Shown here in pieces: positions 47,184 to 64,000 of a stretch of 64,000 nt of DNA. Each line of letters opens with the position of its first letter. Within the stretch, counting starts at the first letter, position 1. Source of the stretch: Bacteroides eggerthii (lineage in GTDB: Bacteria > Bacteroidota > Bacteroidia > Bacteroidales > Bacteroidaceae); assembly GCF_025146565.1 (NCBI RefSeq), contig NZ_CP102258.1, forward strand, positions 1 to 64,000, given 5' to 3'. The translations under genes and the position numbers were made by a program. The notes below the pieces were generated by a model. It worked only from the letters and a program-made list of their open reading frames with translations. It had not been told where the DNA came from and did no database searches.

Positions 47184-47195
47184 TACAGGCTCATC

Positions 47196-48119
47196 ATGAA
47201 CTACACAATCATCGACGCACATGCCCACTTGTGGCTGCGACAGGACACAACAGTGGATGGCCTCCCCATTCGGACGCTGGAGAACGGCCGTTCCCTGTTC
47301 ATGGGCGAAATACGCCAAATGCTTCCCCCTTTCATGGTGGACGGGGTGAACAGCGCAGAGGTTTTCCTCTCAAACATGGACTATGCGCAAGTATCCGCCG
47401 CAGTAATCACGCAAGAATTCATCGACGGCATACAAAATGACTATCTCAAGGAGGTTGCCACCCGCTATCCCGACCGCTTTTTCGTCTGCGGCATGTGCGA
47501 GTTCCGCAAGCCCGGCTATTTTAAACAAGCCGAACAGCTGATAGACAACAACTTCAAGGCCATCAAGATTCCTGCACACCGCCTGTTGCTCAAAGAGGGA
47601 CGGGTGATGCTGAACTGCGAAGAAATGATGCAGATGTTCGGATTGATGGAAGAACGGAACATCATCCTGTCCATAGACCTCGCGGAAGGAAGCACCCAGA
47701 TTGCCGAAATGGAGGAGATCATCGCACAATATCCCCGCCTGAAGATTGCAATCGGACACTTCGGCATGGTCACCCTGCCCGAATGGAAACAGCAGATCCT
47801 GCTGGCACGCCATCCCAACATAATGATCGAATCGGGCGGCATCACATGGCTTTTCAACGAAGAGTTCTATCCCTTCAAAGGAGCAGTGAAGGCCATCCGC
47901 GAAGCAGCCGACCTGGTAGGAATGGAGAAACTGATGTGGGGGTCGGACTATCCGCGCACGATTACCGCCATCACCTACAAAATGTCTTACGATTTCATCA
48001 CGAAATCTCCCGAACTGACAGAGTCGGAGAAAGCCCTCTTCTTAGGAGAGAACGCCCGTAACTTTTACGGCTTCAGCAACTTGCGCACTCTGCCTTATAT
48101 CAAGAACATGTCCGAGTAA
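47196..48119 (+). CDS. Amidohydrolase, probable L-galactono/L-fucono-1,5-lactonase (COG3618 type)
   Basis: A 307-residue member of the amidohydrolase superfamily with HAH at residues 9-11, then KIPAHR, GHFG and the metal-binding aspartate in WGSDYPRT. COG3618-type enzymes hydrolyse sugar lactones. Twelve bases after the dehydrogenase gene, it fits the second step: opening the lactone to L-galactonate (or L-fuconate). A decarboxylase of the ACMSD group shares the fold, but context favours a lactonase. Confidence 0.82.
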   Translation: MNYTIIDAHAHLWLRQDTTVDGLPIRTLENGRSLFMGEIRQMLPPFMVDGVNSAEVFLSNMDYAQVSAAVITQEFIDGIQNDYLKEVATRYPDRFFVCGMCEFRKPGYFKQAEQLIDNNFKAIKIPAHRLLLKEGRVMLNCEEMMQMFGLMEERNIILSIDLAEGSTQIAEMEEIIAQYPRLKIAIGHFGMVTLPEWKQQILLARHPNIMIESGGITWLFNEEFYPFKGAVKAIREAADLVGMEKLMWGSDYPRTITAITYKMSYDFITKSPELTESEKALFLGENARNFYGFSNLRTLPYIKNMSE

Positions 48120-48133
48120 ATAAAAGTAATACC

Positions 48134-49387
48134 ATGAAAAAAAATAAATACATCGTTCCACTCATACTGGTTTTCAGCCTCTTCTTCCTGTGGGCCATCA
48201 GCAGCAACCTGCTGCCTACCATGATCCGGCAATTGATGAAAACCTGCGAACTGAACACGTTCGAAGCATCGTTCACCGAAACCGCCTATTGGCTGGCCTA
48301 TTTCATATTCCCCATACCGATTGCCATGTTTATGAAGAAATACAGCTACAAAGCCGGTATCATATTCGGACTGCTCCTGGCAGCAGGCGGCGGACTGCTC
48401 TTTTTCCCGGCAGCCATGCTGAAAGAATACTGGGCCTATCTCTGTATTTTCTTTATCATCGCCACCGGAATGTGCTTCCTCGAAACGGCTGCCAACCCAT
48501 ATGTAACCGCGTTGGGAGACCCGAAAACAGCCCCCCGCCGCCTGAACCTGGCACAGTCGTTCAACGGACTCGGAGCATTCATCTCCGCCATGTTCCTGAG
48601 CAAACTCATTCTCAGCGGAACGCATTACACGCGTGAGACGCTTCCAATGGATTATCCGGGCGGCTGGCAAGCCTATATACAGGTGGAAACAGACGCCATG
48701 AAATTCCCCTATCTGGTACTGGCCCTGTTACTGATTGCCATAGCCGTAATATTCGTGTTCTCCAAACTGCCGAAAATAGGCGACGAAGAGAACAAGGCAA
48801 ACGCATCCGGGGAGAAACTGATTGACTTCGGAGTGTTGAAACATTCGCATCTGCGCTGGGGTGTCATCGCACAATTCTTCTATAACGGAGGACAGACGGC
48901 TATCAACAGTCTCTTTCTGGTGTACTGCTGCTCCTATGCCGGACTGGAGGAAGATACCGCCACCACATTCTTCGGGCTTTATATGCTCGCCTTCCTGCTG
49001 GGACGGTGGATCGGTACAGGACTCATGGTGAAATTCCGCCCTCAGGACATGTTGGCGGTCTATGCCGTAATCAACATCATATTATGCGGGGTGGTGGCTA
49101 TCTTCGGCGGTATGGTAGGACTATATGCCATGTTGCTCATCTCCTTCTTCATGTCCATTATGTATCCCACACAGTTCTCGCTGGCACTTACCGGACTCGG
49201 CAACCAGACCAAAAGCGGTTCCGCCTTTCTGGTAATGTCCATCGTAGGCAACGCATGCCTGCCTCAGCTGACCGCCTACTTCATGCACGTAAATGAAGAG
49301 GTCTATCACCTGGCATATGTCATCCCTATGCTGTGCTTCGTATTCTGCGCATACTACGGATGGAAGAAATACAAGGTTGTTGACTGA
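48134..49387 (+). CDS. fucP: FucP-type sugar:H+ symporter (MFS)
   Basis: A 417-residue major facilitator with about 12 membrane helices (e.g. IVPLILVFSLFFLWAISSNL at the start) and the FucP signatures NPYVTALGDP (about 124-133) and FFIFATGMCFLETAAN-like FIIATGMCFLETAAN. FucP proteins import L-fucose and sometimes L-galactose with protons. It is 14 bases behind the lactonase, so uptake and oxidation are made together. The L-galactose operon of Bacteroides vulgatus has a transporter in the same slot. Confidence 0.88.
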   Translation: MKKNKYIVPLILVFSLFFLWAISSNLLPTMIRQLMKTCELNTFEASFTETAYWLAYFIFPIPIAMFMKKYSYKAGIIFGLLLAAGGGLLFFPAAMLKEYWAYLCIFFIIATGMCFLETAANPYVTALGDPKTAPRRLNLAQSFNGLGAFISAMFLSKLILSGTHYTRETLPMDYPGGWQAYIQVETDAMKFPYLVLALLLIAIAVIFVFSKLPKIGDEENKANASGEKLIDFGVLKHSHLRWGVIAQFFYNGGQTAINSLFLVYCCSYAGLEEDTATTFFGLYMLAFLLGRWIGTGLMVKFRPQDMLAVYAVINIILCGVVAIFGGMVGLYAMLLISFFMSIMYPTQFSLALTGLGNQTKSGSAFLVMSIVGNACLPQLTAYFMHVNEEVYHLAYVIPMLCFVFCAYYGWKKYKVVD

Positions 49388-49397
49388 AAAGTTAAGC

Positions 49398-49438
49398 AGT
49401 GTCTGATTATTACTTAATTACAGTGTCTAATTATTACT
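49398..49438 (+). repeat. 17-base direct repeat before the alcohol dehydrogenase gene
   Basis: AGTGTCT(G/A)ATTATTACT occurs at 49398-49414 and 49422-49438, spaced 24 bases apart, in the 61-base gap between fucP and the dehydrogenase. It may bind a regulator or be a simple slippage duplication. Confidence 0.5.
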
Positions 49439-49448
49439 ATATAATAAA

Positions 49449-50465
49449 ATGAAAGCAGTTCAAATTACAGCCCCTTCTGAGATGAGGGTGGTTGAGGTAG
49501 AAAAACCGGCGGTAAGTGCCGGAGAAGTATTAGTAAAAATAAAATATGTGGGCTTTTGCGGCTCGGACCTGAATACATTTGCCGGACGCAACCCTATGGT
49601 AAAGCTCCCCGTCATTCCGGGACACGAAGTAGGCGCTATCATCGAAGAGGTGGGACCGGGCGTTCCCGCGGAATTAAAGAAAGGCATGAATGTGACCCTG
49701 AATCCCTACACCAACTGCGGAAAATGTGCTTCCTGCCGTTCGGGACGCGTCAATGCCTGCGAGCATAACGAAACACTGGGAGTACAGCGCAACGGAGTAA
49801 TGTGCGAATACGCAGTATTGCCTTGGAGCAAAATTATCCCGGCAGGTGATATCACTCCTCGCGATTGTGCATTGATAGAGCCGATGAGCGTAGGCTTCCA
49901 TGCCGTATCCAGAGGACAAATCACAGACAATGAGTATGTCATGGTTATCGGCTGCGGCATGATCGGCATCGGCGCCATTGTTCGCGCAGCTCTGAGGGGA
50001 GCAAAAGTCATCGCAGTGGACTTGGACAATGAAAAACTCGAACTCGCCAAAAGGGTGGGCGCTTCTTATGTCATCAACTCCAAAACAGAGAATGTGCACG
50101 AACGCATGCTGGACATAACAGAAGGTTTTGGCGCTGACGTAGTCATAGAAGCTGTCGGAAGCCCTGTGACATACGTAATGGCAGTGGATGAAGTCGCTTT
50201 CACAGGAAGGGTAGTCTGCATCGGTTATGCCAAAAGCGAAGTTGCTTTCCAGACTAAGTACTTCGTCCAAAAGGAGATTGATATTCGCGGTTCACGCAAT
50301 GCATTGCCGGCAGACTTCCGCGCAGTAATCAACTATATGAAATCGGGCAACTGTCCGATAGAGGAACTGATTTCCAAAATTGTATCTCCCGAAAACGCAT
50401 TGAATGCAATGGAAGAATGGGCAGCAGCCCCCGGAAAGGTGTTCCGGATATTGGTTCAATTATAA
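49449..50465 (+). CDS. Zinc alcohol dehydrogenase, probable L-galactonate dehydrogenase
   Basis: A 338-residue medium-chain dehydrogenase: catalytic zinc ligands Cys37 and His59/Glu60, structural zinc cysteines C90, C93, C96 and C104, and a Rossmann fold GCGMIGIGA with acidic AVDLDNEK at about 185 (NAD+ preference). In Bacteroides vulgatus the enzyme in this slot (Bvu0222) oxidises L-galactonate to D-tagaturonate, which joins the ordinary uronate pathway. Galactitol/sorbitol-type dehydrogenases are alternatives on sequence alone. Last gene before a terminator shared with the convergent AraC gene. Confidence 0.85.
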   Translation: MKAVQITAPSEMRVVEVEKPAVSAGEVLVKIKYVGFCGSDLNTFAGRNPMVKLPVIPGHEVGAIIEEVGPGVPAELKKGMNVTLNPYTNCGKCASCRSGRVNACEHNETLGVQRNGVMCEYAVLPWSKIIPAGDITPRDCALIEPMSVGFHAVSRGQITDNEYVMVIGCGMIGIGAIVRAALRGAKVIAVDLDNEKLELAKRVGASYVINSKTENVHERMLDITEGFGADVVIEAVGSPVTYVMAVDEVAFTGRVVCIGYAKSEVAFQTKYFVQKEIDIRGSRNALPADFRAVINYMKSGNCPIEELISKIVSPENALNAMEEWAAAPGKVFRILVQL

Positions 50466-50478
50466 TCTGTTCAAATGA

Positions 50479-50530
50479 AATCCCTTGATTTACTTTTCCG
50501 TATGCAAACAGAAAGTTAAATCAAGGGATT
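50479..50530. terminator. Bidirectional terminator between the dehydrogenase and AraC genes
   Basis: AATCCCTTGATTTA (50479-50492) pairs with TAAATCAAGGGATT (50517-50530), and the stem continues with two mismatches to GAAA/TTTC. It sits between two convergent stops. Confidence 0.75.
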
Positions 50531-50553
50531 GAAATATTTTTTGAAGGAGCCGG

Positions 50554-51411
50554 CTATTGATATGAATACCGGTACTGCTGTGGAGTTACTCCTGTAATTT
50601 TCTTGAACAGGCGATTAAAATATGAATAGTCCTCAAAGGCCAGACTATATGCAATTTCCTTAACCGTCAGAGTTTCTGTTACTAAAATCAATTGAGCCTT
50701 CTCTATCTTTCTCTGATTGATATATTGCAAAGGTGGAATTCCTGTTTCTTTTTTAAACAAACGAATAAAATGGTCTTTTGACAAACAGGACTTCGCAACC
50801 AATGCGTCCAAATCAATATTCTCATGAATATGTTGGCGTATATAAAAAACTGCTTTCCTAATTCTTTGATCTTTAATTTCCACTTTACTCTGTGCTTGTC
50901 TAAAGAAATGAGACAGTAACTGGAATACGATACCACGCGACTCTATTTTATCATAGAACGTACGCTGCTTATTTACCAACAGATTTTTCATCAGAGTGGG
51001 ATTATTATCATAAGTAACCGGATCGGACTGTTTCAAGCTCATGTGCGAGTTAATCTCACATAACCGTTCAAACAAAAAATAGTCCAACTTACTTGCCTGA
51101 ATTTCAAATGGAATATCTAACTGATCTAACCAATTTTCATCCAAATGGTATTCTTCATAAATATGCAGATAGTAATGAACAAAATGAGAATCACAGATAT
51201 TACTGTGTTTCGTAAAAGCCGGAATAAAATACATATATCCGGGAGACAAAACGTGTACACCGTCTGGAAGTTCTATCCTCGCCGTTCCAGCCTCAACATA
51301 ATACAGCCGGGTAAACGGACTACTGACATTCTTCCAATTCCAGTCTGCGTCATGAACAGCCTTTCCCACATTCAGGACCAATGGATGTAATTGTTCTACT
51401 TGCAAATTCAT
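50554..51411 (-). CDS. AraC-family transcriptional regulator
   Basis: A 285-residue regulator: N-terminal cupin (about 15-140: YVEAGTARIELPDGVHVLSPG and YFIPAFTKHSN) that binds a small sugar, and a C-terminal AraC double HTH (about 185-285) with LSKDHFIRLFKKETGIPPLQY and LAFEDYSYFNRLFKKITGV. It is divergent from the mutarotase/GH29 operon and convergent with the L-galactose-type operon, so it probably controls one or both. An in-frame GTG start seven codons upstream is possible. No hybrid sensor or ECF sigma factor is present for the SusC/D locus, so this is the only local regulator candidate. Confidence 0.9.
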   Translation of the reverse strand: MNLQVEQLHPLVLNVGKAVHDADWNWKNVSSPFTRLYYVEAGTARIELPDGVHVLSPGYMYFIPAFTKHSNICDSHFVHYYLHIYEEYHLDENWLDQLDIPFEIQASKLDYFLFERLCEINSHMSLKQSDPVTYDNNPTLMKNLLVNKQRTFYDKIESRGIVFQLLSHFFRQAQSKVEIKDQRIRKAVFYIRQHIHENIDLDALVAKSCLSKDHFIRLFKKETGIPPLQYINQRKIEKAQLILVTETLTVKEIAYSLAFEDYSYFNRLFKKITGVTPQQYRYSYQ

Positions 51412-51632
51412 ATTCTTCAACGTATTAGCCACCTCAAAAATAGGATTTTATAAACGTTCCTGCAAATTATATTATTTACACATCTTTGAAATACTATAAT
51501 AATCGGTTTCGTCCTATAATAAAAATACTAGATATACAAAGTTATCGTTTTTGTCGCATAATACAATCTTTAGTCCTATCTTTATTATTATAACATCGTT
51601 AATTTTGCTTCAAATTAAATCAATGAAAAAAG

Positions 51633-52043
51633 ATGGCAGAGAAGAAGACCAAAGAAGCTATTCAAACCAATTACGGTTATTGCATGCATCCTTATGACAT
51701 TCCTACAAAACGTTATTGTCAGACTTTGGACCTAAAAGATAATCCGGAACTAATAGCAGAATACCGAAAACGTCACAGCAAAGAGGAACACTGGCCGGAA
51801 ATCCGCAAGGAAATTCGAGAAACAGGAATTCTGGAGATGGAAATTTACATATTCAAGAATCATCTGTTCATGATCGTAGAAACACCTTTGGATTTTGATT
51901 GGGATACAGCAATGAAACGCCTGTCTACACTCCCCCATCAGGCTAAATGGGAAGAGTATATGTCGTGTTTCCAAATCTGTGAGCCTGATGCCAATGCTAG
52001 TGAAAAATGGAAACGGATGGAACGGATGTTCTATTTATACTGA
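51633..52043 (+). CDS. rhaM: RhaM-family sugar mutarotase
   Basis: A 136-residue protein of the L-rhamnose mutarotase family (DUF718): RYCQTLDLKDNPELIAEYRKRHS, GILEMEIYIFKNHLFMIVET and a WEEYMSCFQ stretch correspond to the alpha/beta sandwich. These enzymes interconvert alpha and beta anomers of 6-deoxy sugars. In this locus, beside two GH29 enzymes, L-fucose or L-galactose is more likely than L-rhamnose. It opens the plus-strand locus, about 220 bases from the divergent AraC start; that gap holds a TTTTTG...TATCTTTA promoter-like pair near 51549-51582. Confidence 0.82.
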   Translation: MAEKKTKEAIQTNYGYCMHPYDIPTKRYCQTLDLKDNPELIAEYRKRHSKEEHWPEIRKEIRETGILEMEIYIFKNHLFMIVETPLDFDWDTAMKRLSTLPHQAKWEEYMSCFQICEPDANASEKWKRMERMFYLY

Positions 52044-52081
52044 TATCTTTATTGAATAAACCATACTTAAAATCAAATATT

Positions 52082-53593
52082 ATGAAATTATTTATTACTA
52101 TCCTACTCTCATTGATGTCGTGTATCGCATCAGCGCAAGAAAATAAAACGAATTGGGAAACTTTATCCGACTACAAAGTTCCCGAATGGTTTCAAGATGC
52201 AAAATTCGGTATTTATTTCCATTGGGGGGTGTATTCCGTTCCCGAATTTCAAACGGAATGGTATCCCCGCTATCTTTACTTTCCGTGGTCTGATGTACAT
52301 AAGCATCACGAAAAGACCTATGGTCCTGTCTCTAAATTCGGTTATCATGATTTGATTCCACTCTTTAAGGCTGAAAAATTTAATGCCAAAGAATGGGTAT
52401 CATTATTCAAAAAGGCCGGTGCCCGTTTCGTAGGACCAGTAGCTGAACATCATGATGGATTTTCCATGTGGGATAGCAAATGTACACCTTGGAATGCAGT
52501 AAATATGGGACCTAAAAAGGATATTGTAGGTGAAATAGCAAGAGAAGTACGAAACCAAGATTTAAAATTTATCACCACTTTCCACCATGCACGTAATTTC
52601 CAACGTTATTCCGATCCCGATATACTAAAAGCAGAATTGGCAAAGAAACTTCCTGCCGAACGCAGACGCTTTTATCGTAGTCACTTCCCTTATTATCCGG
52701 GAACACATCCTGCTTCCAATGATCCAAAGTTACAATATTTATATGGTAATATGCCGGCCGAAAAATGGAATCGGGAAATATGGTTTGGAAAACTGAAAGA
52801 AGTGATAGATAAGTACGAGCCTGATATTATTTGGTTTGACTCTTGGTTGGATGAAATTCCGGAACAATATCGTTATGAGTTCTGTGACTATTATTTACGT
52901 AAGTCCAAAGAACGTAATAAAGAGGTGGTTATTGTACGCAAACAAAACGATCTCCCCCTTTCCGTCAGTGTAGAGAATTTGGAAAACTCACGCAAAAGTA
53001 ATTTACATCCGGTAGTTTGGGAAACGGATGAAACGGTGAGCTATGGCAGTTGGTCCTACACCACAGATTTAAAAATAAAACCATCGAAACATCTCATTCA
53101 TGAACTGATTGATATTGTGAGTAAAAATGGTGTGTTATTACTTAATGTTTCGCCACGAGCTTCCGGCGAGATACCTGCCGACCAACAGAAGGTATTGCTT
53201 GAAATAGGAGAATGGTTAAAGCAGAATGGAGAGGCCATTTATAATACCCGTCCCTGGTATACCTATGGCGAAGGACCAACAAAGGAACCTGAAGGGAGCC
53301 TCAAAAACCGCAAACTATTTGATTCTCTTGAATATACTTCCCTGGATTATCGTTTCACTCGAAAGGGGAATACTGTGTATGTATTGACTATGGGAGAACT
53401 TAACGTTGGTTCTAATATCTTATTGAAATCTTTAGTTTCTAAACAAATGGCAGAAGTACCAAAAATCCAACGTGTAACAATTTTAGGTAGTACTAAGACT
53501 GTAAATTGGAAAATGGATAGGAATGGATTGATACTGAATGTACCAGAAATTCCTAATAAAGTATCGATAGTATATAAAGTAGAATTTCAATAA
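52082..53593 (+). CDS. GH29 alpha-L-fucosidase-like glycosidase
   Basis: A 503-residue secreted GH29 enzyme: signal peptide MKLFITILLSLMSCIASAQ, N-terminal barrel with KFGIYFHWGVYSVP, AEHHDGFSMW and TTFHHARN, and the retaining nucleophile Asp253 in IIWFDSWLDE; a C-terminal beta-sandwich follows. The long WYPRYLYFPWSD insertion is not in classical human-type enzymes. It should release alpha-L-fucose or, as seen in some GH29/GH95 members, alpha-L-galactose. An in-frame ATG at 52007 would overlap the mutarotase gene; the start at 52082 gives the signal peptide. It has AT-rich codon use unlike the genes before 51.4 kb. Confidence 0.9.
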   Translation: MKLFITILLSLMSCIASAQENKTNWETLSDYKVPEWFQDAKFGIYFHWGVYSVPEFQTEWYPRYLYFPWSDVHKHHEKTYGPVSKFGYHDLIPLFKAEKFNAKEWVSLFKKAGARFVGPVAEHHDGFSMWDSKCTPWNAVNMGPKKDIVGEIAREVRNQDLKFITTFHHARNFQRYSDPDILKAELAKKLPAERRRFYRSHFPYYPGTHPASNDPKLQYLYGNMPAEKWNREIWFGKLKEVIDKYEPDIIWFDSWLDEIPEQYRYEFCDYYLRKSKERNKEVVIVRKQNDLPLSVSVENLENSRKSNLHPVVWETDETVSYGSWSYTTDLKIKPSKHLIHELIDIVSKNGVLLLNVSPRASGEIPADQQKVLLEIGEWLKQNGEAIYNTRPWYTYGEGPTKEPEGSLKNRKLFDSLEYTSLDYRFTRKGNTVYVLTMGELNVGSNILLKSLVSKQMAEVPKIQRVTILGSTKTVNWKMDRNGLILNVPEIPNKVSIVYKVEFQ

Positions 53594-53688
53594 AATAGAC
53601 TATGAAGTTCTAACAACTATTGAATTTTAATATTTTCTAAAAACAAATAGCAAACTTTTACATAAAAAGAACCTTAAATATATTTATT

Positions 53689-56600
53689 ATGGGAATTAGA
53701 AACTACATTTTGGTGTTTATCCTCGCCTTTGCGAGCATATCTGCATATGCGCAAAGTTTGACCGTCACTGGTAAAGTCATTGATAGCGATGGATATGAGG
53801 TTATCGGTGGCAGTATTACCGTTAAAGGTATCCCCGGTACAGGAACTGTTACAGATGTAAATGGTAACTATTCTTTGAAAGTAAATGATGCATTCAAGGA
53901 TGTATTGGTCTTTTCGTACGTAGGTATGACTTCTCAAGAAATAAAAGTCAATGGTAAAAGTATAATTAATGTAACATTGAAGGCTGACGCAGTAATGCTG
54001 GATGAGGTAGTTGCAATTGGTTATGCTACCGTCAAACGCAAAGATTTAACTGGTTCTGTTGCTTCTGTCGGCAGTCAGGAACTGTCCAAAATACCTGTTA
54101 GTGATGTCACGCAGGCCTTGTCTGGACGTATGGCGGGTGTAATGGTGCAACAAAGTGAGGGAGCCCCCGGGTCTTCTGTCTCTATTCGCGTGCGTGGCGG
54201 TATCTCCATTACCCAAAGTAATGAACCTCTTTATGTGATCGACGGTTTTCCAAGTGAAGATGGAATGTCTACACTTGATCCTGCCGAAATTGAGACCATT
54301 GATGTATTGAAAGATGCATCTGCCACGGCTATTTATGGTGCTCGTGGTGCTAATGGCGTTGTGGTCATAACTACCAAAAACGGGAGTAAGGCCGGCGGTA
54401 AGGCTACCGTGACATTCGACAGCTATGTCGGAATTAAGAAGATAGCGAACGAACTGGATGTGCTTTCTCCTTATGAGTTTGTGAAACTGGACTATGAGCG
54501 TACTTTATGGAGAATGAGTACAGGTGACGCTGATGTCAATGGCATGGATATTTGGGAAAGCAGATATGGGAAATATAACGATATAGCATCCAATTATCTC
54601 AGTCGTAAAGGGATCAATTGGCAGGACGAAACATTGGGACGTACTGCATTAACCCAAAATTATCGTGTAGCAGTTTCCGGAAAGACAGAGAAGATAAATT
54701 ATAGCTTGGCTTATTCATATTTTAATGAAGAGGGAGCCATGGTCTACAGTGGCAATCAAAAGCACAACATCTCTTTCAATATGAATCATGAAGTAAACAA
54801 ATGGCTAACAATAAACTCTCGTATCAGTTATGACCAAATGCGTATAGAAGGCATGGGAACTTCTGAGGGTGGAGATCGTTTCAATAAAATGCAGCATATA
54901 TTGCAGTATCGTCCGACAATCGGTATTCAAGGAGTAGATGCCGATTTACTTGCCTCTGAAGATCCGTTGTTTATAGATGATTCAGGAAATGTAATGCAGA
55001 ACCCGTTGATTTCGGCTGCGGAAGAAACCAATGATCGTGAATGGCGTACTTTTCAAGCAAATGCCGGTGCGACAATAAAATTGTTAAAAGGGCTGTCTTT
55101 CCGTTCGACAGTAGGTATGCGTTATCAAACCCGTCGTAATGATGTGTTTTATGGAGATGAATCCATAACTGCTAAGCGCAGTAGTATCTATGGTTCTATC
55201 ACCAATATTGAAAGCAACAGTTTCCAGACTTCCAATGTCCTAACTTATGCGTGGAAAAACAAAATTCATGATATAACCGCAATGATGGGACATGAATATG
55301 TAACTAAATGGATACGTAATTTCTCTGCCAGTGCAAATCAGTTTCCAAATGATGAGATTGGGCTAGGTGACCTTTCTTTAGGAACTCCGAGTACTCCTAC
55401 TTCTAACGAGAATTACGATGATAAATTGCTGTCTTTCTTTGCGCGCGTGAATTACAGTTTGATGGACAAATATCTATTTACAGCTTCCTTACGTACCGAT
55501 GGTTCTTCTAAATTCGGAAAAAATAACAAATGGGGATACTTTCCCGCTTTTTCTGCGGCTTGGCGTTTAAGTGAAGAAGAGTTCATTAAGGATTTAAATA
55601 TATTCTCTGATTTAAAACTCCGTATAGGTTATGGTTTATCCGGTAATAACCGGATAAACAGCTATCAAAGTTTGGCTATTATGAGCTCGGTTACCGCCGC
55701 TAATGCCAATGGAGCACAGGCTGGTTACGCATCAAGCCAAGTTCCCAACCCCGATTTGAAATGGGAAGCAAATAAGACATTTAACTTAGGATTGGATTTT
55801 GGTTTCTTGAATCAACGTATCACTTTTTCTCCTGAATTTTATATCAATCGTAGCAGTAATTTATTACTGGATGCCAAATTGCCCTACTCTTCCGGTTACA
55901 AGAGCATGGTGATTAATGCAGGTGAAACTGAAAATATAGGTATTGATTTGACCGTTAATACAATCAATATAACCAATAAAAACTTTACATGGGGAACTTC
56001 TGTAACTTTCTCGCATAATAAGAATAAAGTTAACAAACTCACAGGTGAAGATGTTCAACTATATTTAGCCAATTTTGGATATGATGGTGCCGGTGCCTCA
56101 CATCAGATTGGTGTTGGCCAACCTGTCGGACAGTTTTATGGTTATGTAACAGACGGATTGTATCAAATCAGTGACTTTAATTATGATGCAACCTCTAATA
56201 AATATACATTAAAGGATGGCATACCTTATCGTGGTGATAAGTCCAACGTTCAACCTGGATATTGGAAATTTAAAAATGTAGATGGAAGTGAAGACAACTT
56301 AATTACGGAAAATGACAAAACAGTAATTGGCAATGCTTCCCCTTCTTTCTATGGCGGTATTAATAATACTTTCACATGGAAAAACCTCGATTTAAGTATT
56401 TTCCTAACTTATAGTTATGGTGCAGAAGTACTGAATGCAACCAAAATGACCAATACAAAAACCGCTAATACCAACAAAAATGTTTTAGCTATAGCTAATG
56501 AGGCTAACCGTTGGGTGACAATTAACAACAATGGAGAAAGGATCACCAATCCTGATGAATTGGATGCCGTAAACCGAGGAAAGACGATTGCTCATTTTGG

Positions 56601-56886
56601 TGATATGAATAATACCTATATACATTCTTGGGGGGTAGAGGACGCTTCGTTCCTAAAGTTGAGTAATATCACATTAGGTTACACATTCCCAAAACAGGTT
56701 ATCAGTAAAATTGGTTTAAGTAAATTACGCTTGTATGCTACAGGCAATAACCTTTTGACTTGGACACCTTATACCGGATTCGACCCGGAAGTTTCCACTA
56801 TGGGCAGTGCCTTGACACCGGGTGTTGACTTTGGAGCTTATCCTAAAAGTCGTTCTTTTGTATTTGGTATTAACGTAGCATTTTAA
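53689..56886 (+). CDS. SusC-like TonB-dependent outer-membrane transporter
   Basis: A 1065-residue SusC-family protein: signal peptide to about residue 22, CarboxypepD_reg-like domain (about 24-105) with GKVIDSDGYEV, plug domain (about 115-225: LSGRMAGVMVQQSEGAPGSS...VRGGISITQSNEPLYVIDG), and a barrel ending FVFGINVAF. No STN domain, so it is a carrier and not a sigma-signalling receptor. It pairs with the SusD homologue 23 bases downstream and imports the oligosaccharide made by the surface enzymes. Confidence 0.96.
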   Translation: MGIRNYILVFILAFASISAYAQSLTVTGKVIDSDGYEVIGGSITVKGIPGTGTVTDVNGNYSLKVNDAFKDVLVFSYVGMTSQEIKVNGKSIINVTLKADAVMLDEVVAIGYATVKRKDLTGSVASVGSQELSKIPVSDVTQALSGRMAGVMVQQSEGAPGSSVSIRVRGGISITQSNEPLYVIDGFPSEDGMSTLDPAEIETIDVLKDASATAIYGARGANGVVVITTKNGSKAGGKATVTFDSYVGIKKIANELDVLSPYEFVKLDYERTLWRMSTGDADVNGMDIWESRYGKYNDIASNYLSRKGINWQDETLGRTALTQNYRVAVSGKTEKINYSLAYSYFNEEGAMVYSGNQKHNISFNMNHEVNKWLTINSRISYDQMRIEGMGTSEGGDRFNKMQHILQYRPTIGIQGVDADLLASEDPLFIDDSGNVMQNPLISAAEETNDREWRTFQANAGATIKLLKGLSFRSTVGMRYQTRRNDVFYGDESITAKRSSIYGSITNIESNSFQTSNVLTYAWKNKIHDITAMMGHEYVTKWIRNFSASANQFPNDEIGLGDLSLGTPSTPTSNENYDDKLLSFFARVNYSLMDKYLFTASLRTDGSSKFGKNNKWGYFPAFSAAWRLSEEEFIKDLNIFSDLKLRIGYGLSGNNRINSYQSLAIMSSVTAANANGAQAGYASSQVPNPDLKWEANKTFNLGLDFGFLNQRITFSPEFYINRSSNLLLDAKLPYSSGYKSMVINAGETENIGIDLTVNTINITNKNFTWGTSVTFSHNKNKVNKLTGEDVQLYLANFGYDGAGASHQIGVGQPVGQFYGYVTDGLYQISDFNYDATSNKYTLKDGIPYRGDKSNVQPGYWKFKNVDGSEDNLITENDKTVIGNASPSFYGGINNTFTWKNLDLSIFLTYSYGAEVLNATKMTNTKTANTNKNVLAIANEANRWVTINNNGERITNPDELDAVNRGKTIAHFGDMNNTYIHSWGVEDASFLKLSNITLGYTFPKQVISKIGLSKLRLYATGNNLLTWTPYTGFDPEVSTMGSALTPGVDFGAYPKSRSFVFGINVAF

Positions 56887-56909
56887 TCAGACTTAAAAAA
56901 GAGAATACA

Positions 56910-58676
56910 ATGAAAAATAAACTGATATATGCGCTTTGCGCACTGATAACAGTAGGATTCGCTTCTTGTGAACTTACGGAAAATCCTGATTCAAAATATG
57001 AAAAGGATACTTATTTTACCACAGAGGAGAAAGCCCGAATGGCAGTAGTGAGTATATACGACTGTTTGGAAACAGGCAAGTATTATGGACAATATGCAAT
57101 GGCCTGCTTTGGTTCTGATGATATTTTTATGATAAAGGGAGTGGGATCCGATGGTACCCGGCGAGATATTTCCCATTATAAGTGTTCCGCATCCAATACC
57201 TGGCTTACTACGATTTGGCAATATGCCTATCAGGGAATTGATCGTGCCAATTTGGCTATAACCAACATTGAAAAAATGGTAGGGTACGAGGAGAACGAGA
57301 TTTTGAAAGAACTGGTGGCACAAGCCAAATTTCTTCGTGCTTTCATTACTTTTGATTTGATCAAATTTTGGGGAGACGTACCTTTTACTACGGAACCTAC
57401 CAGTGGTTATGACATGACCTCAAAACCCCGTACCGATCGTGAACTAATTTATGATCAGATCATTAATGATTTAGATTTTGCCAAAACACATCTGAAGCCA
57501 GGAAACGATATGGCTTCCTCTGAAATCCCCTGTCAGGGTGCAGCCCGTGCATTATTAATGCGTATCTATCTTCAGCGGGCAGGATATAGTTTAGATCGTA
57601 AGACTCGTACATTAACTCGTCCGTCAGATACCGAACGCAAAACTTATTTTGAGGCAGTAATAAAAGAATGGAAAACTTTTAAAACAGAGAATTATCACAA
57701 TTTCTATAATGGTGGATATGAGCAGCTCTTTAAAAACTATTCTCAATTGGTATTAAACAATCAGGAAAGTTTGTGGGAGATTGCATTTGAACCAAACCAA
57801 GGGGAAGCCGATAACTCAGGTGCATGGGCAACGTGGATGGGACCCGAAGTAGATGCGCCCGGAAAGTATTCCGGAACAAGCAACTATATGGGGCGTGCCA
57901 ACGGTTATATTATAGTATTGCCGTATTGGAAATCCTTTTATGAGTCTAATGCAAACAATACTTCCAAAGATATACGTCGTGATGTAAATTTTGTGGATTA
58001 TTTCTATAAATGGGATAAAAATTCTGAAATGCACTATAAATCATATACATGCGATGAAATAGCAAAAAGTTTGAGAAGATATCCTGGTAAATGGCGCAGA
58101 GAATGGATGGCGCTTGGATTTGTCAACCCTAACAACACTGGTGTCAATTACTGTCCGCTACGTTATGCTGATGTGGTGTTAATGGCAGCCGAGGCCTATA
58201 ACGAAACCGGAAACACACCGGAAGCCTGGAATTTATTGAATGATGTACGTAGACGTGCTAAAGCGACACCCATCAACAATTCAAACTATGCAAGTTTGCT
58301 TAAAGCCCCCAAAGTATATGATTTACCATTCATAGCGGATGGGGATGACGCCGGAAAATTCCGTACTGCTCTCTATTGGGAACGCGCTTTTGAACTCTGT
58401 TATGAAGGTCAACGTAAATATGACTTACTACGTTGGGGCATTCTGGGTGATGCACTAAGGGCTACCCAGTCATATCTTGAAACTTGGCAACCAGGGCCGG
58501 AAGAACATATTGATCAAGGTACATTAGACACTTGGAATCCAGTTACTTGGGCCTCAAGCAACTATGTAGCTGGACATACTTTTGTGGATGGCAAACATGA
58601 ACTGTATCCTATTCCTTTGGCAGAAATACAGTCCAATGCTGCATTAGAAAATCAGAACAACCCTGGCTATGACTAA
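56910..58676 (+). CDS. SusD-like glycan-binding lipoprotein
   Basis: A 588-residue surface lipoprotein (Cys20 in FASC), with the SusD/RagB fold: N-terminal YFTTEEKARMAVVSIYD, the TPR-helix segment AQAKFLRAFITFDLIKFWGDVPFTTEP, and the C-terminal LYWERAFELCYEGQRKYDLLRWG and LYPIPLAEI. It caps the SusC channel and binds glycan. Its terminator is directly behind. Confidence 0.96.
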   Translation: MKNKLIYALCALITVGFASCELTENPDSKYEKDTYFTTEEKARMAVVSIYDCLETGKYYGQYAMACFGSDDIFMIKGVGSDGTRRDISHYKCSASNTWLTTIWQYAYQGIDRANLAITNIEKMVGYEENEILKELVAQAKFLRAFITFDLIKFWGDVPFTTEPTSGYDMTSKPRTDRELIYDQIINDLDFAKTHLKPGNDMASSEIPCQGAARALLMRIYLQRAGYSLDRKTRTLTRPSDTERKTYFEAVIKEWKTFKTENYHNFYNGGYEQLFKNYSQLVLNNQESLWEIAFEPNQGEADNSGAWATWMGPEVDAPGKYSGTSNYMGRANGYIIVLPYWKSFYESNANNTSKDIRRDVNFVDYFYKWDKNSEMHYKSYTCDEIAKSLRRYPGKWRREWMALGFVNPNNTGVNYCPLRYADVVLMAAEAYNETGNTPEAWNLLNDVRRRAKATPINNSNYASLLKAPKVYDLPFIADGDDAGKFRTALYWERAFELCYEGQRKYDLLRWGILGDALRATQSYLETWQPGPEEHIDQGTLDTWNPVTWASSNYVAGHTFVDGKHELYPIPLAEIQSNAALENQNNPGYD

Positions 58677-58717
58677 AATTCGGTCTTTTTAATGAAGAGT
58701 GAAAACTTTTAAAACAC

Positions 58718-58813
58718 AAAGGGCTGTTCAAAAGCCAAAATCAGCTAACACTCTGTCTTGTCATTTTGAGAAAAGCTGATGCCATATCTATTAGACTTTT
58801 GGACAGCCTTTTT
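58718..58813 (+). terminator. Terminator after the susC/susD-like pair
   Basis: AAAGGGCTGTTCAAAAG (58718-58734) pairs with CTTTTGGACAGCCTTT (58796-58811); an inner AGCTGAT/ATCAGCT helix lies within. A T-run follows. It separates the SusC/D transcript from the sulfatase and lyase genes, although read-through is likely in such loci. Confidence 0.65.
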
Positions 58814-58871
58814 ATTAATTTATCTTTTTACCTTTATGAAAAATGTCTTACATTCTTATTTTACCCAAAAG

Positions 58872-60383
58872 ATGGGTATAAAGATTGGCATAAGTATTCT
58901 AGGATATACAATCGGAGGAACTATCGATCTTATTGCCCAAAACGCGAAACAGGAAAACTGCCGTCCCAACATAGTATTAATAATTTCGGATGAACATAAT
59001 GGAAATATAATGGGATGTATGGGGGATCCGTATATACATACTCCTAATTTAGATGCGTTGGCTGAAAACGGTATACTGTTTAAATCTCATTATTGTGCTT
59101 CACCGATTTCCGGTCCGTCACGCCAATCTCTTACTACTGGAAAATATGTATCACATCATAATGTGTGGGGGAATACGGTCGGATGTCCTAATGATATTAC
59201 GTCATTACCTCGCATCATGCAACAGCAAGGTTATGAAACCGTATTAACTGGAGGTATGAAATATAACGGATTGAATTATGGATGGAACTCATATAAAGCA
59301 AACGACGGATATAAAATAGCATATGATAAGAAAAAAAAGGCGGGCACTGACATAGCCCAAAAACGTGAACGTATAAAGGCCGGAGTATTTGTGAATAACA
59401 AGGAAGATATAGGCAAAGAGTTTACTCCAATGGGAGCTACTGACATGAATTTATTTACAGACATACAAAGAAGCCAGGATGCAATAGCATACATAAAGAA
59501 TAGAGCTCATGTAAAACAACCTTTTTTCTTACTTGTCGGATTGATGGCTCCGCATTATCCGTTGCAAGCTACGCAGGAACTGGTTGATAAATATAAAGAT
59601 AAAATTCCTATGCCCAAAATTCCCAAAGGATATATAGAAAACTTACCACTAAACTATAAGCACTTAAGAAACACGCGTAAGCTTGAGAATGTACCAAAAG
59701 AGATTGTCAAAAAAGCAAGAGAATGCTACTATGCACGCGTAGAATGGGCAGATAGCCAAATCGGTAAGATTATCAAAACAATAAACGAATCTCCAATGGC
59801 AGATAACACAATCATAATATATACAAGTGACCATGGGGAAAATCTGGGAGAACATGGTCTTTGGTGGAAAAACTGTCTATATGATTGTTCTGCCAAAGTT
59901 CCATTAATCATTAGTAACCCTAAACGTTGGAAAGGAAAACAAACAAGAAGCAAAAACACAGAATCAGTAGATTTGGTTCAGACAATAGCCGATTTAGGGG
60001 GTACAAAAGTGCCAAACGATTGGGACGGCGAGTCCATGTTACCTCTTTTAGAGGACTCAACCTATAACTGGAAAGACTTTGCAATCTGTGAATATTACGC
60101 AGGTTATATAGCTTCCGGAATAACGATGTATCGCCAAGGTAAATGGAAGTATGTCTATCATGCAAGAATGGATGAAAACCATGGTCCGGAAATCGAATTA
60201 TACGATATGGATAATGACCCAGAAGAGTTAACCAATTTGGCTCGGGATAATCAATACAAGATGCTAATCCAGGATTTACATCAAGAACTAATATGTAAAT
60301 TAGGAGAAGACCCTGAGCTGATTGAAAAACGATATCGGGCAGGTGCTATCCCTGAAGCTCCTCTAGGAATAAAATCAGAATAA
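58872..60383 (+). CDS. Arylsulfatase-family sulfatase, serine type
   Basis: A 503-residue S1-family sulfatase: NIVLIISDEHN near residue 33 (metal ligand), the active-site sequence SGPSRQSLTTG with Ser80 as the residue matured to formylglycine, and TSDHGENLGEHGLWWKN. Serine-type sulfatases are matured by the anaerobic radical enzyme anSME, not present here. The upstream part (ATG at 58779) falls in the terminator hairpin; starts at 58836 or 58872 both give a signal-like N-terminus, and I prefer 58872 (MGIKIGISILGYTI). The glycan position desulfated is unknown. Located with a lyase and two fucosidases. Confidence 0.88.
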   Translation: MGIKIGISILGYTIGGTIDLIAQNAKQENCRPNIVLIISDEHNGNIMGCMGDPYIHTPNLDALAENGILFKSHYCASPISGPSRQSLTTGKYVSHHNVWGNTVGCPNDITSLPRIMQQQGYETVLTGGMKYNGLNYGWNSYKANDGYKIAYDKKKKAGTDIAQKRERIKAGVFVNNKEDIGKEFTPMGATDMNLFTDIQRSQDAIAYIKNRAHVKQPFFLLVGLMAPHYPLQATQELVDKYKDKIPMPKIPKGYIENLPLNYKHLRNTRKLENVPKEIVKKARECYYARVEWADSQIGKIIKTINESPMADNTIIIYTSDHGENLGEHGLWWKNCLYDCSAKVPLIISNPKRWKGKQTRSKNTESVDLVQTIADLGGTKVPNDWDGESMLPLLEDSTYNWKDFAICEYYAGYIASGITMYRQGKWKYVYHARMDENHGPEIELYDMDNDPEELTNLARDNQYKMLIQDLHQELICKLGEDPELIEKRYRAGAIPEAPLGIKSE

Positions 60384-60399
60384 TATAAAATACAAAGTT

Positions 60400-62874
60400 A
60401 TGAATAATGTAATAAGGTGTGTACTTTTATCGTACTTGTCTATTTGTTGTATCAGTCATATCCAATCTCAACATGTAATATATCCCCAAAGATTATATGA
60501 GGATTTTAGAAAAGTATCTTCTCCTATAAATAACAAAGAAATTAAAATAAACCCGACAGAGCTACTATGGCCATCAGTAAAATATTGGGAAGGAAGAGAT
60601 GTTGTGTACAATGTCTATTTAAGTCGCGATTCCCTATTTCCCGAAACTACAACTTTTGTTAGCAAAAATCAAAGAACATGTTTTTATAATCCTCACAAAA
60701 TATTGGATGCCGGCATTTGGTATTGGAAATATGATATTGTAGATAAAGATAAAATTGAAACTAAGGGGATATATTCCTTTGTTGTCCCACCAAAAACCAT
60801 TACTTTCGAATCCCCTTGTTTTACTGATTTTGCAAATAATATCAGTAAAAATCATCCTCGTATAATGAACCAAGGTAATGATATTAACTCTGTTCGGAAA
60901 CAGATGAAAAATTACCCGGCATATAATACGATTGTGAATAACGCCATGAATGCGTTAGAATTCGAAGTATATCAAGGGCCATACTATGACGAGAACCCTG
61001 CCGTTGAAAAAAGATTACAAAAGATACATTCCATTGAATTTAAACGTTATCATGACATATTACAATGTTATGTACTCACTGGAGAAGAAAAACTTTTAGA
61101 TAATCTATTATCAAGAATTAATATCTTATTAACTTGGCCTACTCATGATTTGCTGGGTTCTCAGGTATTAACAGCTTTATCTTTAGGTTATGACGCCTTA
61201 TACAATGAATTACCTGCAAACTTGAAAAAACAGATATTACAAAAAATTGAGCAGCAAATGTGTAGTGGCTTGGAAAAATGGCCAGGAGTAATAGAAACAA
61301 AACAAGTAGAAAATCACTTTTGGCAAATGGAAATCTCTGGCAATTTTTGTGCGGCTCTCGCTACTATTCATGATTCAGAAATAGCAAAAGAGATGTTAAA
61401 ATACACATATGAGTTATTTATAGCACGTTTCCCAAATCTATCAACCAAATATGATGGTGGATGGGCTGAAGGAATGGGATACTTTGCAGTAAATAACAGT
61501 TGTATAATTAATATGGCATTATGGATGAAAAAAATTGCAGGTGTAGATGTTTTTCATATGCCTTGGTATAAAAAATTGTCCGATTATTACATATACTTTG
61601 CTCCTGTAAATGGGCAGATAGAAGGTTTTGGAGATTCACATGAACGCAAGGAAAATGGAAATAAAGAGGGAACTTCGATTTCATTTATATTATCGTGTGA
61701 ATCCCATTATCCATCTGCTAATTATCGATTACTGTCTCAATTTAAGGCAGCAGAAAATAAATCCACTTTCTTTAATAGTATTGAACCTTGGTATCAGATG
61801 GTAAATTCCATACAGTTTAATTCTGAAAAGCTGGTACTTCCTGACTCAATGCCCAATGAAAAAGTGTTTTACAGTACCGGTTTAGCAGCAATGCATACGG
61901 ACATAAAAAATGTAGATAAAGGAACATCTGTCTATTTCCGTTCTTCTCCCTTTGGAGCCAAAGGGCACATGCATGCCAACCAAAATAGTTTTAACATAGC
62001 AAGGAAAGGAGAACGAATTTTTTATTCCAGTGGATATTATACATCTTTTGCAGATCCACATTCGATGACTTCTTATCGAAACACTCGGGCATCTAATACC
62101 ATTTTAGTAAATGATTGCGGACAAGCTTTTGGGCATGAAGGATACGGATTTATCAAACGTTTTCTTGCCGGTAAAGAAATAACTTATGTTTGCGGTGATG
62201 CCACTGCGGCTTATAAACCTACTACGGACAAACAGTTTCTAACGATGAATGCCGAAAACGGTATAAAAGAGACCCAAGCATATGGAGTAGGTGATTCAAA
62301 ATTAAAACTTTTTGAACGGCATTTAGCCTTCATTCGCCCAAATCTAATAGTCATCTATGATGTATTAGAGTCAGAACAAGATTGTAATTGGACCTTTCTG
62401 TTACATACCATGAAAGATCAGCAACCCACAATTGAGAAATCAGGCACTTTGCGTGTAGTTACTCCTCTAAATACCGCTTGTGTCAATGTTTTTGGTTCCT
62501 CATTCATACAACCTTTTTGCACAAACCAGTTCTTTTCTCCAGCCATTGATTTTAAGAAAAAGTATAAAGAAGTTCCCAATCAATATCACATAAGTTATAA
62601 AACAGCTAAAAAGTCTAAAAGAATGCGTTACCTTGCTATTTTGCAACTAGGAGAGAATGGGGATAAATTAACACCTATCCACCCTAATCATAAAGGAGAA
62701 ATAAGATTAGGAGATATTACAATTTCTGCAGAAATGAGTCCAACTAAACCTGCAAAAATGAATATCAAAACGACAAAAACGTCCCTCGATGTTCAACCTA
62801 CAAAAACAATACTGAAAGATACTACAAAAAAACAAATTTGTTACAATCAATATCCAGAACAGATGCATAGGTAA
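60400..62874 (+). CDS. Heparinase II/III-like polysaccharide lyase with N-terminal DUF4962-like region
   Basis: An 824-residue secreted protein: signal peptide to about residue 24, a fibronectin-like N-terminal region (about 25-130), an alpha/alpha toroid (about 150-480) with NHFWQMEISGN (Asn305-His306) and EGMGYF (357-362), and a beta-sheet C-terminal domain with GHMHANQNSFNI (521-532). This is the DUF4962-heparinase II/III architecture of lyases that cleave uronic-acid polysaccharides. The Asn-His pair and Tyr of the toroid fit the known catalytic layout. It lies 16 bases after the sulfatase, so the target is probably a sulfated uronate-containing glycan. The exact PL family is not certain. 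Confidence 0.85.
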   Translation: MNNVIRCVLLSYLSICCISHIQSQHVIYPQRLYEDFRKVSSPINNKEIKINPTELLWPSVKYWEGRDVVYNVYLSRDSLFPETTTFVSKNQRTCFYNPHKILDAGIWYWKYDIVDKDKIETKGIYSFVVPPKTITFESPCFTDFANNISKNHPRIMNQGNDINSVRKQMKNYPAYNTIVNNAMNALEFEVYQGPYYDENPAVEKRLQKIHSIEFKRYHDILQCYVLTGEEKLLDNLLSRINILLTWPTHDLLGSQVLTALSLGYDALYNELPANLKKQILQKIEQQMCSGLEKWPGVIETKQVENHFWQMEISGNFCAALATIHDSEIAKEMLKYTYELFIARFPNLSTKYDGGWAEGMGYFAVNNSCIINMALWMKKIAGVDVFHMPWYKKLSDYYIYFAPVNGQIEGFGDSHERKENGNKEGTSISFILSCESHYPSANYRLLSQFKAAENKSTFFNSIEPWYQMVNSIQFNSEKLVLPDSMPNEKVFYSTGLAAMHTDIKNVDKGTSVYFRSSPFGAKGHMHANQNSFNIARKGERIFYSSGYYTSFADPHSMTSYRNTRASNTILVNDCGQAFGHEGYGFIKRFLAGKEITYVCGDATAAYKPTTDKQFLTMNAENGIKETQAYGVGDSKLKLFERHLAFIRPNLIVIYDVLESEQDCNWTFLLHTMKDQQPTIEKSGTLRVVTPLNTACVNVFGSSFIQPFCTNQFFSPAIDFKKKYKEVPNQYHISYKTAKKSKRMRYLAILQLGENGDKLTPIHPNHKGEIRLGDITISAEMSPTKPAKMNIKTTKTSLDVQPTKTILKDTTKKQICYNQYPEQMHR

Positions 62875-62938
62875 ACTATTACGATATCTTTCCTGTAAAT
62901 GTACAGTATTGTATAACCAATAAAACATAATAATCAAC

Positions 62939-64000
62939 ATGAAGAAAAAAATACTATTATTATTGACACTTACATTATTTCTGCAAAATGGTTTCACACA
63001 AACCGAAGAACATGACAGAAAAATGAAGTGGTGGCGCGAAGCACGTTTCGGAATGTTTATCCATTGGGGACCATATTCTATTTTAGGAGGAGTTTATAAT
63101 GACTATCTACAACGAGTAGGAGGTACAGAATGGATAATGAATCGATGCAAAATTCCTGTAAAAGAATATCAGGAAATAACCAAAACATTCAATCCAGTGA
63201 AATATGATGCTGAAGCGTGGGTAAAAATGGCGAAAGATGCCGGCATGAAATATTTAGTAATCACTGCCAAGCATCACGATGGTTTTGCCTTGTTTAAAAC
63301 TAAAGCCAGCAAATATAATATTGTAGATTTTACTCCATATGGTAAAGATGTGCTAGATGCTTTAGCAAAGGCGTGCCGTAAACACGATATGAAATTAGGT
63401 TTCTACTATTCACAAATACAGGATTGGAATAATCCGGGAGGAACTACCGGTCGAAGAACCATGGACCAAGGATGGCCCAATCCGAAAGCAAACGAAATAG
63501 ATGAGTATACCCAAGCACACAATGGTAGTTGGGATCCTTTACAACAAACGGCTACTCGCAAAGAATACTTCAACAATATAGCTATTCCCCAAATCAAAGA
63601 ATTGCTCACCAATTATGGAGACATTGCTATATTCTTTTGGGACACCCCTACAGGAATGACAGAAGAGTATGCAAAAAAAATAAATGATCTCTTTAAAGAT
63701 TATCCGCACATCATTACCAATGACCGCCTAATCAGAGGTAGCAAAAAATATACTGGTGATTATAAGACTCCTGAACAAATAATTCCCACCGTCAAGCAAC
63801 TTGACGGTACCGACTGGGAAACCAACATGACTTTAAATGACAGTTGGGGATACAAGAAACGAGGTTGTGTATGGAAAACATCGGAGACCCTGATTCTTAA
63901 CCTAGTAGATATAGTGTCTAAAGGGGGAAACTACCTACTAAATATTGCTCCGGACGGTGAGGGAGGAATTCCTGAAATAAATTACCACCGACTGAAAGAG
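62939..64000 (+). CDS. GH29 alpha-L-fucosidase-like glycosidase (partial, runs off the window)
   Basis: The reading frame is open from ATG at 62939 to the last base (354 codons), so the C-terminus is missing. It has a signal peptide (MKKKILLLLTLTLFLQNGFTQ), a barrel opening ARFGMFIHWGPYS, ITAKHHDGFALF, and the nucleophile Asp235 in IFFWDTPTG, then NDSWGYKK. It is clearly GH29 but only distantly like the other GH29 gene at 52082, so the two probably cut different linkages. It starts 64 bases after the lyase gene. Confidence 0.92.
   Translation, partial: MKKKILLLLTLTLFLQNGFTQTEEHDRKMKWWREARFGMFIHWGPYSILGGVYNDYLQRVGGTEWIMNRCKIPVKEYQEITKTFNPVKYDAEAWVKMAKDAGMKYLVITAKHHDGFALFKTKASKYNIVDFTPYGKDVLDALAKACRKHDMKLGFYYSQIQDWNNPGGTTGRRTMDQGWPNPKANEIDEYTQAHNGSWDPLQQTATRKEYFNNIAIPQIKELLTNYGDIAIFFWDTPTGMTEEYAKKINDLFKDYPHIITNDRLIRGSKKYTGDYKTPEQIIPTVKQLDGTDWETNMTLNDSWGYKKRGCVWKTSETLILNLVDIVSKGGNYLLNIAPDGEGGIPEINYHRLKE

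Follow-up and report, generated by a model that had tools for sequence, protein, structure and literature searches.

Does a polysaccharide utilization locus (PUL) that adjoins an L-galactose catabolic operon act together with that operon and, if so, on which glycan? The question is raised by the first 64 kb of the Bacteroides eggerthii genome (NZ_CP102258.1, a single contig of 4,206,509 bases); this stretch of 64,000 nucleotides is called the window below. Here an operon for L-galactose breakdown (46251-50465) is followed by a divergent AraC-family regulator gene, which is part of the locus, and by genes encoding a RhaM-family mutarotase, a SusC/D pair, a sulfatase, two lyases and two dissimilar glycoside hydrolases of family GH29, GH29a and GH29b (Table 1). 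We tentatively favour, with a little less than even confidence, the reading that these genes specify a PUL for a heparan-sulfate-like glycan with terminal alpha-L-galactose, and perhaps alpha-L-fucose, which is coupled to the neighbouring, already known oxidative L-galactose pathway.

The glycan would then consist of a hexosamine-uronate backbone which is partly sulfated. Chains would be imported by SusC/D, cut internally by the PL12 lyase and trimmed by the PL15-like lyase, while the sulfatase would remove sulfate, perhaps from the 3-O position of N-acetylglucosamine (GlcNAc), and the GH29 enzymes would release the L-sugars of the branches. The RhaM-family protein would equilibrate the anomers of the freed L-galactose and the FucP-like symporter would take it up, after which it would be oxidised via the lactone and L-galactonate to D-tagaturonate and so enter the uronate route. 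AraC would control the PUL, and the operon would be controlled at its retained operator, probably by LacI acting in trans. The L-galactose half is known; the novelty seems to lie in joining it to a heparan-type PUL that contains PL12, a PL15-like lyase, a sulfatase, SusC/D and two GH29s. The first-pass annotation of this DNA knew of no described system with this exact set, and we likewise found none in the open-access literature, outside which most subscription papers lie.

Backbone-degrading enzymes

The proteins of 46251-66400 were scanned with Pfam, and the named genes all gave matches above curated cut-offs and were all collinear, which argues that the gene set is not due to chance. This bears out the earlier list of a RhaM-type mutarotase, two GH29 enzymes, SusC/D, a sulfatase and a DUF4962 plus heparinase II/III lyase, and neighbouring SusC and SusD genes, accompanied by those of degradative enzymes and a regulator, identify the locus as a PUL. 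Beyond 64 kb, where the first-pass annotation advised looking for further enzymes, GH29b runs on to 64393; the PL12 lyase gene comes next and closes the locus.

By its enzymes the PUL appears to be of the heparan type. The PL12 lyase scored 748.4 against the HepC equivalog model (cut-off 700) and was identical to the solved heparinase III 5jmd at 391 of 643 aligned residues (60.8%). The sulfatase translation contains S-G-P-S-R, the serine-type sulfatase motif, in agreement with the first-pass annotation, and its best solved relative was 7oz8 at 195.2 bits, only 27.6 bits ahead of 7pth (167.6 bits). A review table lists 7oz8 as BT1918, an S1_46 enzyme acting on 3S-GlcNAc (PMC10154620). For the DUF4962 lyase the best solved relative was the exo-heparinase 6lja (325.6 bits, with the alginate lyase 3a0o at 94.5), and in the alignment this PL15-like protein retains the residues matching H337, Y390 and H555 of the PL15_2 exo-heparinase. 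Mutating His337, Tyr390 or His555 is reported to nearly abolish the activity of BIexoHep (PMC7904915). A sulfated, uronate-bearing, decorated glycan, as originally proposed, is supported by these genes, and the extra PL12 gene narrows the backbone specifically to a heparan-like one.

Close relatives of the PL15-like lyase were compared in nine loci of named genomes, within the stretches examined. Seven of these loci had a GH88-like gene (L014, L015, L016, L018, L019, L020 and L022), three had PL12 (L014, L016 and L022) and two had GH29a homologues (L015 and L020). A scan of 10 neighbours gave glucosamine-6-phosphate isomerase domains (L015 and L020) and ROK kinases (L014 and L020), which is in keeping with an amino-sugar polymer; in L021 a sulfatase (51% identical) adjoins the PL15 lyase. 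In a sample of the phylum, 2 of 395 genomes had a close match to the PL15-like lyase (E ≤ 1e-150), one of them being the source genome itself.

These loci also bear on the idea that the backbone is some other uronate glycan of plant, algal or microbial origin, with lyases that have evolved away from heparan, while the L-galactose coupling is real. The PL15-like protein is no closer to 6lja than, roughly, other DUF4962 proteins are to that enzyme, and in genome G042 GH29a homologues lie among GH78 and GH31 genes, and a relative of the alpha-L-galactosidase BpGH29 together with RhaM among GH106, GH95 and GH28 genes. However, the closeness of PL12 to heparinase III, its score above the HepC cut-off and the amino-sugar genes near PL15 relatives make this idea improbable.

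The nearest heparan-type PULs are those of Phocaeicola (L014 and L016) and Bacteroidales bacterium SW299 (L022), which share sulfatases, PL12 (57-59% identical) and PL15 (47-48% identical) with the locus studied here but differ from it in having a GH88-like gene inside the locus and neither GH29 nor an L-galactose operon in the stretch examined. It is conceivable, from the combination of PL12, PL15, GH88-like gene and sulfatase in these three loci, that ours is an ordinary heparan sulfate PUL which gained GH29 genes without any dedicated branched substrate and lies next to the L-galactose operon by chance, all the more so as GH29 is common in the source genome (6 genes from 7 matches). We regard this as quite improbable, given that L015 and L020 likewise have GH29a homologues together with PL15 relatives, and that G018 combines a GH29a homologue with GH88, sulfatase, PL8 and DUF4962 lyase genes and a GH29b homologue of 87.5% identity.

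In the source genome GH88 is found in another cluster and not in this locus. That cluster (4,071,015-4,118,102; L035, L036, L010 and L037) encodes five DUF4962 lyase-like proteins, SusC/D pairs, two hybrid two-component regulators, DUF6562 proteins, two GH29s, a GH95 and the GH88-like protein. Its SusC and SusD are 56% and 49% identical to those of the window, and one of its GH29s is 67% identical to GH29b. The GH88-like protein may serve the locus studied here too, as it shares 66-69% identity with its counterparts next to PL12 in L014, L016 and L022. The similar cluster of G018 has two PL8 lyases, DUF4962 lyases, a sulfatase and a GH88-like gene besides its homologues of GH29a (64%) and GH29b. 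Among database proteins, P0010 (1324 aa) is a fusion of DUF4962/heparinase and sulfatase domains that is 61% identical to the window lyase, and P0089 is 71% identical to GH29a; the longest contigs of both are 76,566 bases, so that they probably lie on one contig.

L-sugar release and catabolism

By score, the closest solved relative of GH29a was BpGH29 (7ljj, 352.9 bits), followed by FgFCO1 (4ni3, 307.8 bits); BpGH29 is an exo-alpha-L-galactosidase (PMC12316285). In a GH29 tree of 32 rows BpGH29 paired with a G042 protein from L058 (100/99). The two enzymes of the locus fall in separate parts of this tree, confirming that they are dissimilar, and the closest solved chains to GH29b carry the name alpha-L-fucosidase. 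The BpGH29 cluster of a published network also includes xyloglucan fucosidases (PMC11189522). Because the tree places GH29a apart from this characterised exo-alpha-L-galactosidase, its sugar may be either L-galactose or L-fucose. GH29a was rejected as a BpGH29 orthologue because the tree places it elsewhere, despite its top score.

BpGH29 belongs with BpS1_11 to the porphyran PUL of Bacteroides plebeius, which resembles the present locus in having GH29 and an S1 sulfatase beside SusC/D and in releasing L-galactose (PMC12316285). The present locus differs in its heparinase-type lyases, in having no GH16, GH86 or GH2 and in the position of GH29a in the tree. With no GH16 or GH86 match among the scanned proteins of 46251-66400, a porphyran locus was ruled out for that stretch. 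In G042 (L058:4200-12846) a BpGH29 relative (62% identical), a GH95-like gene, a RhaM-family gene and GH106 stand in a row with GH28 beyond, a possible pectin-type setting for L-galactose. In G085, which belongs to another family, a GH29a homologue (52%) stands in a row (L056:1552-6344) with a zinc dehydrogenase gene (54% identical to that of the window), an aldo/keto reductase-family gene (24%) and an MFS gene.

The aldo/keto reductase of the operon matched the solved L-galactose dehydrogenase 7lh6 with 549.8 bits over residues 1-310, and the MFS transporter exceeded the fucP cut-off (TIGR00885; 343.3 vs 280.4 bits). The amidohydrolase and the zinc dehydrogenase reached the cut-off of no NCBIfam model, though their Pfam families fit, with the L-fucono-1,5-lactonase model far below its cut-off for the amidohydrolase (27.5 vs 400); their predicted roles as lactonase and L-galactonate dehydrogenase consequently rest on operon context. 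Hobbs et al. (2014) reportedly described the lactonase step and the gene order of the B. vulgatus L-galactose operon. BVU_0219 and BVU_0222 of Phocaeicola (Bacteroides) vulgatus are reported as L-galactose and L-galactonate dehydrogenases (PMC12632266). As in that pathway, one operon here encodes an L-galactose dehydrogenase together with a probable L-galactonate dehydrogenase and would lead to D-tagaturonate, but it appears to have been relocated from its LacI gene to beside a PUL. A new L-galactose pathway can be dismissed, the route being known from P. vulgatus. The proposal of a distinct route for L-galactose-bearing glycans is not supported in the form in which it was put, since the L-galactose route is already described (PMC12632266). 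An altronate dehydratase domain is encoded elsewhere in the genome, as is a fucose isomerase domain (551603), so both L-sugars may be usable.

The mutarotase scored 102.1 bits against PF05336, above the family cut-off, and 30.3 against the L-rhamnose mutarotase equivalog TIGR02625, whose cut-off is 99.6. A relative of it lies inside the L-galactose operon of G090, and it is perhaps an L-galactose mutarotase. The matches listed in the open-access literature search made no mention of an L-galactose mutarotase.

Origin and regulation of the block

Homology to G018 and G062 ends at 45616-45620 and restarts at 66530-66536. This insertion site was empty in all eight relatives compared, which were drawn from ten searched for the DHH gene (G003 and G026 left out): DUF4827 abuts the DHH gene in seven and PGM abuts it in G039. 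Starting with the first base of the operator (46156) and ending at 50466, the operon is homologous to its site in G018. The LacI gene stands beside the operon in G018; here its counterpart, 93% identical, stands alone at genome position 2,058,431 (L069:8431-9441), and the genes on its other side are still collinear with G018. The GC content of the operon genes is 49.5-52.1% and that of the genes from AraC to PL12 is 34.1-45.3%, although PL12 itself (45.3%) is not unusual next to the DHH gene (44.8%). From this GC contrast, the LacI gene left at 2.06 Mb and the homology of the operon to the G018 site, it looks as though most of the PUL was imported and the operon is native but relocated. The locus would then clearly exemplify, in nature, the placing of a catabolic operon beside a PUL of differing base composition with its LacI gene left behind.

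The operator pattern TTACGTAAACCATTACGT occurs once in the window (0.01 matches expected), and the exact pattern was found in 7 of 71 loci, each time upstream of an L-galactose dehydrogenase gene. As the pattern was retained with the operon and elsewhere stands upstream of such genes, LacI acting in trans probably still controls the operon, and AraC the PUL. Independent regulation of the two halves, which the first-pass annotation held would refute its proposal, is thus partly borne out: the operon has retained its LacI-type operator and the genome still has the LacI gene (2.06 Mb), although the two regulators possibly answer to a single inducer.

A script search with the Bacteroides -33/-7 promoter consensus gave one match, in the spacer between AraC and the mutarotase, on the AraC strand. 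No firm AraC motif common to 11 of the 12 extracted spacers (G011 left out) was found by eye and with MAFFT. The 13-mer TTTGTCGCATAAT occurs in both promoter regions, that of the L-galactose dehydrogenase (45951-46250) and that of the mutarotase (51433-51632). It was rejected as an AraC site because G021 and G012, neither of which gave an AraC match, have nearly the same stretches upstream of their dehydrogenase genes.

Recurrence of the association in relatives

We searched 119 genomes, our own included, at set thresholds and found the L-galactose dehydrogenase in 36, an AraC of this kind in 23 and the mutarotase in 55. Counting that of the window there were 27 AraC matches, of which 11 had a GH29 match within 3.3 kb, 11 the mutarotase within 12 kb and 5 the L-galactose dehydrogenase within 13 kb; the AraC neighbour in G003, G026 and G050 is a GH29 below the search threshold. 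The gene order in G011 is AraC, GH29, SusC, SusD, GH29, RhaM, L-galactose dehydrogenase, amidohydrolase, and in G036 a unit of AraC, GH29, SusC, SusD and RhaM faces the L-galactose operon. Twelve L-galactose loci were taken from the 35 relatives with the gene, picked for a nearby GH29, AraC or mutarotase or for good assembly. A divergent LacI gene was present in ten of them; in the two lacking it (G011 and G045) the stretch includes a relative of this AraC. The tie of GH29, RhaM and L-galactose catabolism drawn in the first-pass annotation was seen again in some relatives, together with this kind of AraC. The recurrence of the regulator with GH29s, the RhaM-type mutarotase and sometimes the L-galactose operon supports coupling. 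Also in its favour, within the genus (G000-G070) the L-galactose dehydrogenase was present in 18 of 21 genomes with this AraC vs 15 of 50 without it (Fisher P = 1.9e-5), in a test which ignores relatedness and draft gaps.

Besides the retained operator, several observations weigh against a heparan-like glycan with L-galactose branches coupled to the operon. GH29a groups with the fucosidase FgFCO1 (99/98, FgFCO1 having a long branch) and lies outside the BpGH29 alpha-L-galactosidase pair, the two groups being sisters at 89/79, and the fucose isomerase domain would offer a separate route for L-fucose. No GH29 was found in seven of the nine loci with close PL15 relatives, in the stretches examined, an argument against a constant pairing of PL15 with GH29. 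Most of the GH29s that neighbour AraC in relatives share only 29-33% identity with GH29a and belong to a separate clade. In G042 this AraC stands with two GH29a homologues among GH78 and GH31 genes and an isomerase-like gene, and in G003, G026, G039, G050 and G057 the distance between it and the dehydrogenase is 90 kb to 2 Mb.

In an alternative account the target is a fucosylated heparan-like glycan, both GH29s are alpha-L-fucosidases, L-fucose is metabolised via the fucose isomerase of the genome and rearrangement alone has made the L-galactose operon a neighbour. The tree position of GH29a, the fucosidase names of the best solved relatives of GH29b, the isomerase domain and the operon's own operator fit this account, as does the fucosylated heparan sulfate from scallop cited in PMC13107218. 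Nevertheless, AraC and RhaM are again tied to L-galactose genes in G011, G036, G045 and G090, the closest enzyme to GH29a by score is an alpha-L-galactosidase, and the operon and the PUL share a single insertion site. On balance we consider the fucosylated target somewhat unlikely.

Candidate substrates

Two invertebrate glycans are possible kinds of substrate. The snail galactosylated glycosaminoglycan CCG has a heparin-like sulfated backbone with a single alpha-galactose, given as D, on O-3 of GlcNAc; section 2.1 of that paper describes PMP analysis, methylation and nuclear magnetic resonance and reports no test of absolute configuration there (PMC13107218). The same paper cites the fucosylated heparan sulfate from scallop. 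A glycan of the snail CCG or the scallop type would fit the gene set. As a possible kind of substrate, CCG shares with the predicted glycan the heparin-like sulfated backbone and the alpha-galactose branch, but its galactose is given as D (PMC13107218).

If the reading is right, the locus points to a hardly described branched heparan-like glycan, to enzymes for stripping L-galactose or L-fucose from heparan-like chains and to a candidate L-galactose mutarotase function for RhaM-family proteins below the L-rhamnose mutarotase cut-off. In a narrower version the whole locus is dedicated to a so far undescribed glycosaminoglycan from an invertebrate or a microbe, resembling heparan sulfate and branched with alpha-L-galactose, and the bacterium has placed its own L-galactose operon alongside. 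This seems rather unlikely to us; were it true, at least some of the alpha-galactose branches on invertebrate heparan-like chains would be L and the RhaM-family protein would be an L-galactose mutarotase.

Layout of the locus

Table 1 Features of the locus, with positions in the window unless given as genome positions.
Feature	Position	Strand	Basis or remark
Inserted block with L-galactose operon, AraC and PUL	45620-64000, on to genome 66530		about 20.9 kb; homology breakpoints vs G018/G062
LacI-type operator TTACGTAAACCATTACGT	46156-46173		pattern match, upstream of operon
L-galactose dehydrogenase (aldo/keto reductase)	46251-47183	+	Pfam; 7lh6
Probable L-galactonolactonase (amidohydrolase)	47196-48119	+	PF04909
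FucP-like sugar symporter (MFS)	48134-49387	+	TIGR00885
Probable L-galactonate dehydrogenase (zinc-dependent)	49449-50465	+	Pfam; role inferred from operon
82-bp hairpin repeat, left copy	50459-50540		right copy at genome 66417-66498
AraC-family regulator, divergent from PUL	50554-51432	-	Pfam
RhaM-family mutarotase	51633-52043	+	PF05336
GH29a, alpha-L-fucosidase or alpha-L-galactosidase	52082-53593 (open reading frame 52007-53593)	+	PF01120
SusC-like TonB-dependent transporter	53689-56886	+	Pfam
SusD-like glycan-binding lipoprotein	56910-58676	+	Pfam
S1-type sulfatase	58779-60383	+	Pfam; BT1918 (3S-GlcNAc sulfatase) is closest solved structure
PL15-like lyase (DUF4962 and heparinase II/III)	60400-62874	+	Pfam; 6lja
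GH29b, probable alpha-L-fucosidase	62939-64393 (window edge at 64000)	+	Pfam; nearest solved chains
PL12 heparinase III-type lyase, last gene of locus	genome 64403-66400	same as PUL	HepC model; 5jmd

The start of GH29a is likely the ATG at 52082, because a database protein of 100% identity (P0084) has 503 aa. The gene after PL12 is of the DHH family and lies on the opposite strand. The two copies of the hairpin repeat, which are identical at 78 of 82 positions, flank the part from AraC to PL12, with folding z-scores of -3.9 and -9.0, and a 34-base piece of the repeat was found at those two genome sites only, with up to 3 mismatches allowed. An imperfect repeat of 44 bases that contains TCGTATTGGGAA is present twice at 45880-45966, in a 0.5-kb part of the block with no match to G018 or G062.

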